Source: Rhodopseudomonas pentothenatexigens (GTDB lineage: Bacteria > Pseudomonadota > Alphaproteobacteria > Rhizobiales > Xanthobacteraceae). From it: a DNA stretch of 64,000 nt. Under the pieces are notes generated by a model that was given only the letters and a program-made list of their open reading frames with translations, was not told the DNA's origin and searched no databases. Where the stretch lies: NCBI RefSeq assembly GCF_900218015.1, contig NZ_UFQQ01000001.1, positions 124,001 to 188,000 on the forward strand. The letters are read 5' to 3'. Shown in pieces: positions 1-20,488 of this stretch; within the stretch, counting starts at the first letter, position 1, and the number at the start of each line of letters is the position of its first letter. The translations under genes and the position numbers were made by a program.

Positions 1-252
1 CTTCAGCGATTTCGACTCCAGCAGCCAAGGGCCGGGAACGTAGTCGATCACCAGATGCGCGAAATCCGGCTGGCCGGTCACCGGGCACAGCGAGGTGAAT
101 TCCGGCGCGGTGAAGCGAGCCAGGAAATTGGTGTCCTTCTGCGGGTTCGGCACCCGGTCGAGCTTGGCGGCTTCCGGCCGATCCGGCCATTCGACGGCTT
201 GGCCGAGCTGCAGGGGCGAGGAGGCGGCGGATTTGCGGGGCGTTTTCGACAT
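1..252 (-). CDS. queF: NADPH-dependent 7-cyano-7-deazaguanine reductase (QueF), C-terminus beyond window
   Basis: Only the first 84 codons are in the window; the gene continues past the left edge. QueF reduces preQ0 to preQ1 in queuosine biosynthesis, in the cytoplasm. The visible protein contains [13 protein letters not shown], where the Cys is the one that forms the thioimide with the nitrile substrate in this family, and ends near ESKSLK, the start of the QueF substrate/NADPH motif. The N-terminal tail is rich in Ser, Ala and Lys, as is usual in alphaproteobacteria. The ATG at 252 is the first start after a stop-rich intergenic stretch, and the gene is divergent from eno. The assignment is secure although the gene is partial. 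Confidence 0.93.
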
Positions 253-284
253 GGCTTGAAACTGTGGTCTCCGTTACCGCCGTC

Positions 285-1722
<1,438 letters not shown>

Positions 1723-16420: not shown

Positions 16421-16526
16421 CTATAAGTTGATTTGGTCTCAGCATGTGGGGTTACAGTTGCGCAACCCAAGGTTGCATAAGCACCGTGGGTGCAATCGCA
16501 GATCCGTCGTCCCGCAGGAGATCATC

Positions 16527-17489
16527 ATGGCCACCACGATCACGATCAACGTCACCAACAAGAGCACCACGCTCCAGAACTTCTTCTTCTTCCAGCAGCC
16601 GGCGCAGTATTCCGGCGGCGCCCAGGTCTACAGCAACAGCCTCTACAGCCAGGCGCTGCTGCCCTACGACCAGTCGGGTGCGGTGCTGAGCTTCTCGATG
16701 GTGCTCCAGTACTATGCAGGCGTCCAGCAGCAGGTGGCGCCGCCGCAAGTCGGTCAGCCGTCCGGACAGCTCGCCGCGATTCAGCCGATCGACCTGACCC
16801 CCGCGGCGGGCGGCACGCCGACCAACAACACCACCAACATGACGGTCTCGCCATCGCTGGGCCTGTCGGTGCCGACCTCGACGCAGGGGCCGCAGGCCGG
16901 CTCGTTCCGGATTATCACGCCGGTGTTCAACCCGGTGCTGACCGCCTACAACGCGGGTTCCGCGGTGCAGTCGCTGTCCGGCGGCATCACGCTGTCGAAC
17001 TTCGTGACGGCCCAGCCGAACTCCAATCTCGACTGTCAGCCGATCATCAAGTTCTACGTCCAGACCGGCACCTATACGGCCGGCACGGTGATGAACTTCA
17101 CCTCGTCGTCGCAGGGGGCCGCGATCTGCGACGCCACCCCCGGCTACACCACGTTCAACGTCACCTATAACCTCAACGGCACCTGGACCGTGAAGAACAT
17201 GGCCTCCACGCTGTTGGCCGACGGCACCCGTGGTCTCGTCGAAAAGTCGGTCTACACCACGGGGCTGATCGCTCCGGTGGCGCCGAATGCCGAGATTCTC
17301 AACGAGGCCGGCACCGCCGTGGTTTCCACCGGTACCGCGGCGAACTTCCTGAAGCCGATCAACGTCGCGAACCTCAGCCAGCCCGGCAATATCGTGGTGA
17401 CCCGCGAGTATCAGGTCGGCCCGACCGGCGGACCCTACCAGGGCACGATGTGCACCCAGGTCGCCGGCAATACCGCCGTGTTCGATTAG
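16527..17489 (+). CDS. Uncharacterised protein, first of two tandem paralogues (FFFFQQP family)
   Basis: A 320-residue protein of no family I can name. It is rich in Thr, Asn, Gln, Ser and Ala, has few charges, and has no signal peptide. The conserved block MATTITIN is followed by TLQNFFFFQQPAQYSGG and LLPYDQSGAVLSFSM; later blocks are FRIITPVFNPVLTAYNAGSA, LSNFVTAQPNSNLDC, IKFYVQTGTYTAGTVMNF, CDATPGYTTFNVTYN and GTWTVKNM. The pattern suggests an all-beta fold. Compared with its neighbour it has an extra C-terminal segment of about 75 residues beginning at GLIAPVAPN. The start at 16527 follows CAGGAG. It is probably co-transcribed with the second copy, 128 bases on. Confidence 0.75.
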   Translation: MATTITINVTNKSTTLQNFFFFQQPAQYSGGAQVYSNSLYSQALLPYDQSGAVLSFSMVLQYYAGVQQQVAPPQVGQPSGQLAAIQPIDLTPAAGGTPTNNTTNMTVSPSLGLSVPTSTQGPQAGSFRIITPVFNPVLTAYNAGSAVQSLSGGITLSNFVTAQPNSNLDCQPIIKFYVQTGTYTAGTVMNFTSSSQGAAICDATPGYTTFNVTYNLNGTWTVKNMASTLLADGTRGLVEKSVYTTGLIAPVAPNAEILNEAGTAVVSTGTAANFLKPINVANLSQPGNIVVTREYQVGPTGGPYQGTMCTQVAGNTAVFD

Positions 17490-17617
17490 GAGCCGCCGCG
17501 CCGCCGACAATGAAGGTTTGATCGGGCGGCGTGGGAGCGACCGCGGCCGGGGGCCTCGACGGCCTCCGGCCGTTGGCGTTTCATCGACGTGGCTGGCGAA
17601 GCAACGGCGCGCACATC

Positions 17618-18352
17618 ATGGCCACCACCATCACCATCAATCTGCAAAACGGCGGCAATACGCTGCAGAACTTCTGCTTCTTCCAGCAACCGGCACAGTA
17701 TTCGAGCGGCGGTCAGGTATTTACCAGCAGCCTGTTGGGCCAGCCGCTGCTACCCTACCAAGCCTCCGGCGCGATCCTGAGCTTCATGATCACGCTGCAG
17801 ACCTACGCTGGGGTGCAGCAGCAGATTGCGCCGCTGCAGCCGGGACAGCCGGTCGGACAGGCCGGGGCGATCCGTGCGATTGAGCCGACTCCGGCGCAGG
17901 GCACGCCCACCGGCAACACCACGACGATGACGGTCACGCCGGCGCTCGGCCTGTCGCCGACCACGGTCACTGCCGGGCTGAACACCGGCGTATTCCGGAT
18001 CGCGACGGCAACGTTCAATCCGGTGCTGGTCGCCTACAATACGGGAGTGGCGATGCAGACGCTTGCCGGTGGAATCCTGCTGTCGAATTTCGTGACGGCG
18101 CCGCCCAGCGTCGCCCTCGACTGCACGCCGTCGCTCAAGTTTTACGTGCAGACCGGGACCTACCCCGCGGGGACCGCATTGGATTTCGGCGCAATGTCGG
18201 CGACGGCCGCGGTTTGTGACGCCACTCCAGGGTTCACGGCCTTCAACGTCAGCTACAACATCGACGGCACCTGGACGGTCAAGAACATGGTGGCTGGACG
18301 GCTCGCGAACGGCAAGCCCGGGCTGATCGTGAAGTCCGAATTCACCACGTGA
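17618..18352 (+). CDS. Uncharacterised protein, second tandem paralogue (FFFFQQP family)
   Basis: A 244-residue homologue of the preceding gene, alignable over almost its whole length: MATTITIN, TLQNFCFFQQPAQYSSGGQV, LLPYQASGAILSFM, FRIATATFNPVLVAYNTGVA, LSNFVTAPPSVALDC, LKFYVQTGTYPAGTALDF, CDATPGFTAFNVSYN and GTWTVKNM. It lacks the C-terminal extension of the first copy. Tandem duplication followed by divergence is clear. Its 3' end faces the ligand-gated channel gene with only 34 bases between the stop codons. Its function is unknown. Confidence 0.75.
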   Translation: MATTITINLQNGGNTLQNFCFFQQPAQYSSGGQVFTSSLLGQPLLPYQASGAILSFMITLQTYAGVQQQIAPLQPGQPVGQAGAIRAIEPTPAQGTPTGNTTTMTVTPALGLSPTTVTAGLNTGVFRIATATFNPVLVAYNTGVAMQTLAGGILLSNFVTAPPSVALDCTPSLKFYVQTGTYPAGTALDFGAMSATAAVCDATPGFTAFNVSYNIDGTWTVKNMVAGRLANGKPGLIVKSEFTT

Positions 18353-18386: not shown

Positions 18387-19442
18387 CTATCCCCGCAGCA
18401 CCAGCGCGAGACAGACGATCACCATGATCGACGGCAGGGCCCAGCGGCAATGTGAACGCAGCCCCGTAGCGAGCACGTGATAGCGCGAGTCCGGATCGCT
18501 GCGCGGCTTCCAGAGCAGCGCATCGATCAGCACCACGACCACAAGATAGAAATAGCCGAGCGAGATAATCTTCGCGATCGGGGTGTTCAACGAGATCGAA
18601 CCGGGGAAGCTCGCCTCGTAGGTGAAGCTGATCGCCGCCAGCGCGAGGAGGGCGGAGAACACCAGGCTGCCGTGATCCTTCGGCGCGGTGCCGGGGATCC
18701 ACAGCACGAACAGCGACACCGCCAGCGTCGAGACAATCGGGATGAACAGCCGCAGCAGATAGCGCTCCGACAGCCGCTCGATCCCGACGGTGGCGTTGAG
18801 CCGCGAGTAGGCGCGTGCGTTCCAGCCGGCGGCTTCGTCGTAGAAGAAGGTCAGGTCGAGCGGCCGCCAATCGATCACTGACAATTTCGGTTCGATCCGC
18901 GAGAACAACCGGTCGGTTTCGGTGGTCACCAGCATCGCGTCCTGTTTGGCGTAGCGCGGCAGCGAGAACGACAGCGACAGCCGCTGGCGGTCGAACGGAA
19001 ACGCCGCCATATCGACGCCGACGCGGAAATCGGCCTCGTAGCGCTCGACCAGCACGACACTGCCGTCGGCATAGACCGAGACCGCATCGACTTTGGCGCG
19101 GGGCTCGCCGAGCTGATTGTCGATCGCCAGGCCTGGCGTCCAGATTCCGGCGATGTACTGCCGTGCTTCGACGCCGACGCGGTCGATCCGCGAGGTGCCG
19201 GCGTCGAGCGGATCGAACCGCCGGCGCGGATCGGTCCAGCGCTGGGTGACTTCGATGTACAGCCTCGCGCGGCCGATCACCTCGCGAATTTCGGTGATGT
19301 CGAGCACGCGCAAGCCGATGCGGACTTGGACTGGCAGTTCGACGCCTTCGGGCAGCACTTCCGAGGGCGAGCTTGCGGCGGATGCGGGCGCACCGCACAG
19401 CGCAGCGAAAACGATCAGCAGAGCCGCCAGCAGTGACTTCAT
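18387..19442 (-). CDS. Prokaryotic pentameric ligand-gated ion channel (Cys-loop receptor superfamily)
   Basis: A 351-residue channel subunit. A signal peptide is at residues 1-22. The extracellular beta-sandwich at about 35-228 includes WTPGLAIDNQ (loop A/D region) and the superfamily signature FPFDRQRL at 149-156, without the two cysteines, as in other bacterial members (GLIC, ELIC). Four membrane helices are at about 229-249 (M1, with the conserved Pro in LFIPIVST), 257-276 (pore-lining M2), 289-312 (M3) and 333-350 (M4), with the short M3-M4 loop typical of bacteria. Its start overlaps the stop of the upstream sensor gene by 4 bases (ATGA). The ligand and ion selectivity are unknown. Confidence 0.9.
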   Translation of the reverse strand: MKSLLAALLIVFAALCGAPASAASSPSEVLPEGVELPVQVRIGLRVLDITEIREVIGRARLYIEVTQRWTDPRRRFDPLDAGTSRIDRVGVEARQYIAGIWTPGLAIDNQLGEPRAKVDAVSVYADGSVVLVERYEADFRVGVDMAAFPFDRQRLSLSFSLPRYAKQDAMLVTTETDRLFSRIEPKLSVIDWRPLDLTFFYDEAAGWNARAYSRLNATVGIERLSERYLLRLFIPIVSTLAVSLFVLWIPGTAPKDHGSLVFSALLALAAISFTYEASFPGSISLNTPIAKIISLGYFYLVVVVLIDALLWKPRSDPDSRYHVLATGLRSHCRWALPSIMVIVCLALVLRG

Positions 19443-20488
19443 GCCTGCGCCTCGTCGCGCGGCTTCAGCATCCGGGCCGACACCAAGAAGGCCACGAAGG
19501 CGAGCACAGTGCCGATCAGCGCCGCCGCGATCAGCTCGATCCGGGTCCGCTGCAACGCTGCGCCGTGCGACGGGAAGCTCTTCACTGCCGCGATGTTGCC
19601 GATCATCCGGCCGGAGAAGTCGATCAGCGGCTGCACCAGGATCGCGCCGGTCTCGCCGCCGATCCGATGCGGGGTGATCTCGCGGGTGCGGGCGAGGCGG
19701 ATGGCGCCGTCGCGCAACAAGCCGGTGAACAGCGGCGTGTCGGTCGAAGCGAGCGCGATCAGGTCGCCGAACTGCTCGCCCTTGTCGCCGGGCCTGCGCG
19801 GCGGCAACTCGGCGAGTGATTGGCTCAGCACCACCGCGATGTCGGCATTGGTCAGCGTCTTTACCTGTTCGAGGATCGGCTCGAGATTGAGACCGGCCTC
19901 GACGGTGCCGACGAAGCGGTCGCCGTCGTTGATCACCGCGATGCCGCGCACGAAGGTGCCGGCGACGCCGATCTCAAGGCCGACCTGGGAGCGCCGCGTC
20001 TTGTTGGCGGCGAGCACCATCTGCCGAAACTTGGTCAGGTCGTCGCCGAACTTATCCGGCAGATGCAGCCGCAGCAGATAGGTCATGTCGGCGGCGTGAA
20101 AGCCGAACACCGGAACGCCCTGGCTTTTCAGATACGCATAAGGGGCGGCCGTGAGTTCCGTCAGCGCGGCGCGGTCACCGGCGGCAAGTGCGCGCGCCAC
20201 AGCCCGCTGCCGCGCCGAGGTCTCCGCCTGGGTCAGCGCGAACCGTCCGGCTCCGTCGAGCGCGGCGGTGATCGCCTGGCTGACGGCCGCCATCTGGTGA
20301 TCGCGGTCGCGCGCGATCACGTCGTTCTGCATCGAGAAGGTGAGGGCGAGCATTGCGCCGAAGCTCAGCGCCAGCACCAGTGCGGTTATCAGGCCGGCAT
20401 GGACGCTGGAGACGCGCAGAGGCGGACGGGGAACGCTGGGAGGCACCGACATCGAGGTTTCCGGGGGCTGTTGACCCATCCTCGACAT
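19439..20488 (-). CDS. Membrane-anchored periplasmic sensor (double-Cache-like) without output domain
   Basis: A 349-residue protein with a transmembrane helix at about 30-51, a periplasmic domain of about 260 residues, a second helix at about 317-340 and a cytoplasmic tail of only nine residues. The periplasmic part (ITAALDGAGRFALTQAETSARQ, YLKSQGVPVFGFHAADMTYLLRLH, GIAVINDGDRFVGTVEAGLNL, GAILVQPLIDFSGRMIGNIAAVKS) has the layout of dCache ligand-binding domains of chemoreceptors. No HAMP, kinase, methyl-accepting or cyclase domain follows. The gene ends inside the start of the ligand-gated channel gene, so the two are translationally coupled. Starts at 20479 and 20452 are also possible. Confidence 0.78.
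   Translation of the reverse strand: MSRMGQQPPETSMSVPPSVPRPPLRVSSVHAGLITALVLALSFGAMLALTFSMQNDVIARDRDHQMAAVSQAITAALDGAGRFALTQAETSARQRAVARALAAGDRAALTELTAAPYAYLKSQGVPVFGFHAADMTYLLRLHLPDKFGDDLTKFRQMVLAANKTRRSQVGLEIGVAGTFVRGIAVINDGDRFVGTVEAGLNLEPILEQVKTLTNADIAVVLSQSLAELPPRRPGDKGEQFGDLIALASTDTPLFTGLLRDGAIRLARTREITPHRIGGETGAILVQPLIDFSGRMIGNIAAVKSFPSHGAALQRTRIELIAAALIGTVLAFVAFLVSARMLKPRDEAQA

Follow-up and report, generated by a model that had tools for sequence, protein, structure and literature searches.

Within the 64,000-nucleotide stretch of Rhodopseudomonas pentothenatexigens DNA analysed here (hereafter the window; contig NZ_UFQQ01000001.1, positions 124,001 to 188,000), two genes follow one another on the minus strand: first a gene for a membrane-bound sensor protein, then a gene for a pentameric ligand-gated ion channel (pLGIC) subunit, whose ATG overlaps the TGA of the sensor gene (Table 1). 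An earlier note on this DNA had described such a channel and sensor pair joined by an ATGA overlap; we found both the pair and the overlap in the DNA, and the coordinates of that note match the window sequence exactly. Four-base overlaps are frequent in bacterial operons, and the overlap alone therefore says only that the two genes form an operon. A promoter scan found none, compared with 0.2 in shuffled sequences, and a terminator scan found one, compared with 1.7. The channel is 96% identical to that of one Rhodopseudomonas sp. record and 86% identical to that of R. pseudopalustris. Elsewhere in the window, the plus strand carries two tandem genes (16428-17489 and 17531-18352) that encode similar proteins with a common TITIN...LQNF.FFQQPAQYS stretch, as judged by eye, and that matched no Pfam family at E values up to 0.01.

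Table 1. Positions of the two genes and of the features discussed, numbered from the first base of the window
Feature	Position	Strand	Basis
pLGIC subunit, 351 aa	18387..19442	-	PF02931, E=2e-15; matches to solved ELIC/GLIC chains
Sensor protein: two membrane helices, dCache_3 domain in the periplasm, cytoplasmic tail of ~12 residues	19439..20488	-	PF14827, E=1.9e-20; hydropathy
ATGA overlap, 4 bases (sensor stop and channel start)	19439..19442	-	Sequence; comparison
Channel residues 199-216, loop C region, including Gly206-Trp207	18795..18848	-	Comparison of paired and unpaired rows; alignment to GLIC stretch

The two proteins of the locus

In a profile scan, PF02931, the ligand-binding-domain profile of the pLGIC or Cys-loop (Pro-loop) receptor superfamily, matched residues 34-187 of the channel with 57.3 bits (cut-off 26). 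PF02932 remained under its cut-off (E=0.56); despite this, the profile alignment of the channel runs through the membrane domain of GLIC. A phmmer search against solved structures gave matches to pLGIC chains of ELIC, GLIC and 6v4a (which we take to be DeCLIC) at E values of 4e-12 to 2e-10 among the 60 matches listed, with aligned stretches that start at channel residue 31-66 and end at 306-351; GLIC and ELIC thus have the same fold as the channel described here. Hydropathy and alignment placed four hydrophobic helices in the channel besides an N-terminal hydrophobic stretch, which is presumably a signal peptide, and both the FPFD (Pro) loop and the M1 proline (P235) are present, with F148, P149, D151 and P235 invariant in 12 aligned rows. 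Judged by its sequence, the protein is a pLGIC, for which assembly into a pentamer and ligand-gated conduction are predicted from the family. The position that we presume to be -1' of M2 by GLIC-based numbering carries an acidic residue in 10 of the 13 paired channel rows, as read by eye from the alignment. Because an acidic residue at this position goes with cation selectivity, this suggests cation flow through the paired channels.

The sensor matched PF14827 (dCache_3) over profile positions 5-229 of 239, and since the score of 73.9 bits compares with a cut-off of 25.7, we consider the domain a true Cache domain, the type that had been proposed earlier. It lies between two hydrophobic helices placed by hydropathy at residues 33-51 and 319-337, which gives a cytoplasmic tail of 12 residues and not the nine counted in the earlier note. 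The true start of the protein may be Met4 (20479) or Met13 (20452), because the first ATG is an AGG in L022/L057 and hence is not conserved. As a single sequence, the sensor found nothing among solved structures at E values up to 1, and the five matches of a sensor profile to such structures (E 0.21-0.69) were set aside. Single-chain AlphaFold models built on three-row alignments (window, L022 and L023) reached pLDDT values of 39.1 and 38.7 and were unusable.

Conservation and shared inheritance of the pair

How widely is this arrangement kept? Among 34 distinct pLGIC loci, a sensor gene lies directly upstream of the channel gene in 18 and not in the other 16; conserved linkage, which the earlier note had named as a check on its proposal, thus reaches well beyond the genus. 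Chance does not account for the arrangement, which is found in as many as 18 separate loci. Of 249 genomes searched within the order, 17 contained channel matches, 18 in all; ten of these loci are paired and eight unpaired. To these, 61 genomes of the genus and its relatives added six paired loci, a sample of the phylum (398 genomes) two paired and three unpaired loci, a sample of the class (385 genomes) three unpaired loci, another sample from the order (397 genomes) one unpaired locus, and a collection of genome contigs one more unpaired locus. No further pLGIC loci were found in one family (12 genomes) and one other order (48 genomes), and no channel match is listed for nine genomes labelled genus g2, a genus from the family of the window that we guess to be Bradyrhizobium. 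A plasmid collection likewise gave no channel match, which we regard as neutral. Weak matches may have been missed, because the best few candidates per genome were scored. One paired locus, that of G690, carries the kinship label 'same phylum', from which we read that this pair lies outside the class.

The counts exclude repeats (L057 lies within L022 and L059 within L023), and further copies were counted once (L021, L025-L032, L035, L061, L065/L078/L095, L066/L094, L068, L071-L077, L079-L087, L089, L090, L092, L093 and L096-L102). The lack of a partner is weaker evidence at L069 and L070, because the former has fewer than 700 bases upstream of the match and the latter an interrupted frame. 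The 16 Rhodopseudomonas genomes have either both genes (7) or neither (9). In the nine genomes without the channel, a sensor search gave no match in one and, in the other eight, matches of at most 36% identity in frames of 658-944 aa. We saw no orthologous short sensor without a channel in the 249 and 16 genomes, in which weak candidates were not all scored; one short dCache_3 frame that has no channel beside it (G014:C402) was rejected as a counter-example, as it is truncated at the end of its contig.

A candidate start codon for the channel is present at the -4 overlap in 16 of the 18 paired loci (10 ATG, 6 GTG), and in the remaining two the candidate is an ATG at +1 (G253) and a TTG at +16 (G210). 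No third neighbour was common to three or more of the 13 loci for which longer flanks were compared (11 outside the genus and two inside it). A first clustering had included alternative frames of the pair itself; once aligned stretches inside the channel or sensor were removed, clusters were left only in the near-relative pairs L022/L023, L098/L102 and L099/L101. Upstream of the unpaired channels, where one frame was scanned at each of 10 of the 16 loci, there was no Cache or PBP match, which we regard as neutral evidence, and six of the ten frames matched no family. One genome (G065) carries two divergent sensor-channel pairs, L093 and L099, both linked and in the same order. At L014, a frame for a pyridoxal-dependent decarboxylase (60-1445, plus strand; PF00282, 3e-52) is followed after 10 (or 34) bases by an unpaired pLGIC that begins at 1456 or 1480. 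Such enzymes often make amines. ELIC is reported to be activated by primary amines (PMC3119659), and the two genes of L014 may therefore be an amine-signalling pair.

In a channel tree with 10 of the 16 unpaired loci (L012, L015, L024, L069, L070 and L088 were left out), the 18 paired channels formed a single clade with support of 100/99, under a long-branch warning for G167+G690 on one side and the unpaired rows on the other that points to a possible false joining. The 18 paired sensors likewise formed a single clade (support 100/100) against the domains of 20 of 23 scanned methyl-accepting chemotaxis proteins (MCPs), with a long-branch warning for G065b. The channel and sensor trees of the 18 pairs have 9 of 15 splits in common, compared with a mean of 0.31 and a maximum of 4 in 5000 label permutations, and four of the six discordant splits per tree fall within Rhodopseudomonas. 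The distances of the 13 non-redundant pairs are correlated (r=0.74), a value reached in none of 5000 Mantel permutations. Shared species history partly explains this agreement; the two pairs of G065 and the grouping of G167 with G690 across distant genomes do not come from species history alone.

Probable chemoreceptor descent and conserved residues

Where might the sensor have come from? The sensor query found 51 matches in the 249 genomes. Ten of them adjoin a channel, one is truncated at a contig end, and the other 40 lie in frames of 611-797 aa. The 23 of these 40 long relatives that were scanned all carry MCPsignal above its cut-off, and HAMP is listed for 21 of the 23, in three of these below the cut-off. 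The idea of a chemoreceptor module, put forward in the earlier note, thus holds in terms of descent, the closest long relatives scanned (23 of 40) all being MCPs. The 18 paired sensors, all scanned, each contain dCache_3 and no signalling domain above the cut-off; none has MCPsignal, the signalling domain of an MCP, and the sensor of L032 gave two weak GAF matches that miss the cut-off and lie within the Cache stretch or directly behind it. Their tails are of two kinds, with 8-12 residues in 11 loci and 53-66 residues in seven. The 11 short tails, including that of the window, leave no room for a HAMP linker. The seven long tails are HAMP-sized; one gives a HAMP match with E=0.0067, below the cut-off, and most open with Arg-Pro or a similar proline motif, as HAMP does.

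The simplest history would start from an MCP whose kinase-control half was lost; the loss of HAMP would have followed in the Rhodopseudomonas branch. We infer this direction of loss, because the trees have no root and because kinases and c-di-GMP enzymes also belong to the wider dCache_3 family. A survey of Cache proteins gives 883 with dCache_3, of which 327 are histidine kinases, 248 c-di-GMP enzymes, 236 MCPs and, by its ion-channel column, none ion channels; the ion-channel proteins in its Table 1 stand under dCache_1 (PMC4822843). As that column counts only VWA_N and VGCC_alpha2 companions, a separate pLGIC would escape the survey.

We compared 13 non-redundant paired sensors with the 20 MCP domains. 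Fourteen positions are conserved in both groups, 12 of them in distal-lobe residues 124-199, and R140, D150, R155, E172 and E197 occur in all 13 paired sensors and in 17-20 of the 20 MCPs. With these distal-lobe residues kept, the dCache_3 domain of the sensor is a putative binder of small molecules. Nearer to the membrane the two groups differ: an Asp before TM2 is present in 95% of the MCPs versus less than 30% of the paired sensors, 85% of which have a glycine in TM2 (G326). At equal distal-lobe identity, the identity among paired sensors exceeds that among MCPs by 0.11 in TM1, 0.11 in the proximal lobe and 0.14 in TM2 (jackknife SE 0.038, 0.034 and 0.052, respectively); at a distal identity of 0.3-0.4, the difference in TM2 is small (0.25 versus 0.20). 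We read this excess as a suggestive sign that a partner located in the membrane or close to it constrains the paired sensors; the pairs of sequences compared depend on one another, and at low identity the effect is small.

The paired channels have a mark of their own. Gly-Trp at channel positions 206-207 is present in all 13 non-redundant paired rows (from 18, near-copies having been dropped) and in none of 15 unpaired rows (taken without L024 and L070; L075 and L067 are the same gene in this comparison). The surrounding stretch aligns with a stretch of GLIC that we take to be loop C and, unlike the paired channels, the GLIC sequences aligned do not have Gly-Trp. M4 of the channel, where an outside helix would be expected to make contact, was rejected as the contact site, as it has no extra conservation in paired channels (0.38 versus 0.42 in unpaired channels; at lower identity, 0.26 versus 0.26).

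A putative split receptor and its alternatives

For Rhodopseudomonas, an operon of a pLGIC gene and a stand-alone Cache gene was predicted by Tasneem et al. in 2004, who suggested that the two products cooperate, with motility as a downstream use (PMC549065); the operon and the idea of cooperation are therefore not new. The genus, the two kinds of gene and the idea are the same here, but that report concerns one bacterium, whereas the present comparison covers an 18-locus clade and adds the relatedness to MCPs, the loss of output, the shared inheritance and the features on the channel side. What is added is the step from a remark on one genome to a conserved two-gene family with a probable chemoreceptor origin and specific residues for experiments. 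Among the matches listed in open-licence PMC text, with preprints outside the scope, there was no later study of a pLGIC and Cache pair.

We are highly confident that the channel and the sensor have some functional linkage, and we think it probable, by a modest degree, that the channel is gated or tuned by the sensor as its ligand-binding subunit, both being parts of one split receptor for which contact, ligand and current are predicted. Its sensor would be the periplasmic half of an MCP, without the signalling domain and, in the Rhodopseudomonas branch, also without the HAMP linker, and would lie next to the pLGIC pentamer in the inner membrane. Binding of a small molecule to the distal Cache lobe would cause a change that passes to the membrane-proximal lobe and the transmembrane helices and, because the sensor has no cytoplasmic output, the channel would receive the signal from the side, plausibly through its altered loop C hairpin, the helices or both, so that an ion current would be opened or tuned. 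Here we infer the evolutionary direction of loss, the physical contact, the direction of control, the ligand, the stoichiometry and the ion selectivity. Several points count against such a split receptor: chemoreceptor Cache modules usually dimerise, which is at odds with a pentamer, M4 has no extra conservation, the TM2 difference is small at a distal identity of 0.3-0.4, and both trees carry long-branch warnings. We also entertain, as a bolder idea that we would sooner doubt than believe, that this channel branch gave ligand recognition over to a decapitated chemoreceptor subunit that signals sideways, with loop C as a fixed docking hairpin. If true, this would be a heteromeric ligand-gated channel with its agonist site outside the channel protein, and parts of a chemotaxis receptor would have been rewired to an electrical output.

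Might the Cache protein act without gating the channel? In the proposal of Tasneem et al., it would concentrate or sense a ligand for the channel's own binding domain with no gating contact, and other bacterial pLGICs indeed adjoin stand-alone PBP-II genes (PMC549065). The extra constraint in the helices and proximal lobe of the sensor would be needless for a mere ligand catcher. Loop C caps the usual pLGIC ligand site, and a Gly-Trp of the loop C region kept in channels about 25% identical would be odd for a site of varying ligands, which makes this proposal, in our view, unlikely. A little less likely again is that the sensor-derived protein has lost ligand binding and aids the folding or membrane residence of the pentamer. 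Its upstream position and co-presence fit a subunit needed for biogenesis, and the extra constraint does sit in the membrane parts of the sensor, but the distal-lobe residues common to chemoreceptors, which a pure chaperone could afford to lose, are still conserved.

Alternatively, the truncated sensor might pair with full-length MCPs while the channel works alone; MCPs dimerise, and two dCache_3 MCPs are also present in this genome. We hold this to be improbable, as the sensor clade excludes the 20 MCPs, most paired sensors lack the MCP-typical Asp before TM2, and the genomes searched (249 and 16, weak candidates not all scored) showed no orthologous short sensor apart from a channel. That the genes are chance neighbours or hitch-hiking members of an operon, with no functional link, is hardly credible: short overlaps are common in bacteria, but the 18 loci, which by their kinship labels span two classes, the single clades, the splits common to both trees and the lack of any other conserved neighbour all speak against it.

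A sensor that gates the channel would also bear on how Cache proteins work. The single route considered open for Cache sensor signalling is the C-terminal helix into a cytoplasmic domain (PMC4822843); if the sensor gates the channel, it would be a Cache sensor barred from this route, which must signal sideways. Ligand sensing in the receptor superfamily would then be modular and movable to another protein. The role and the opening stimulus of bacterial pLGICs are poorly known, and a constant chemoreceptor-related partner offers a concrete handle, by a ligand search with the isolated Cache domain and by a comparison of gating with and without the partner. There would also be a parallel to alpha2-delta of animal voltage-gated calcium channels, likewise a Cache-bearing auxiliary subunit of an ion channel; that channel is unrelated, and the likeness would be one of analogy and not of kinship. 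The same parallel has been drawn for fused bacterial forms (PMC549065).

These fused pLGICs, with N-terminal MCP_N/Cache or PBP modules (PMC549065), likewise combine the core of the channel with a sensor module in the periplasm, but in a single chain, whereas the sensor described here is a separate membrane protein with two helices of its own. DeCLIC (PMC12664993) is also a bacterial pLGIC, and an accessory part in the periplasm modulates it; unlike the separate sensor, its N-terminal domain belongs to the same chain and binds calcium, and the word Cache is absent from the main text of that paper. For GLIC and ELIC, the titles and abstract openings among the matches listed made no mention of a partner gene. 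Among the channels collected here, L067 (1285-2997, minus strand) has a 570-aa pLGIC frame in which about 244 residues precede the channel core; these residues matched no Pfam family at E values up to 0.001 and may be an undescribed N-terminal domain or merely an open frame. The most distant paired channels, L092 and L094 (G167 and G690), have an M1-M2 loop that is seven residues longer, and their M2 has Gly-Gly where other paired channels have Ser-Ala, Ser-Ser or Thr-Thr.
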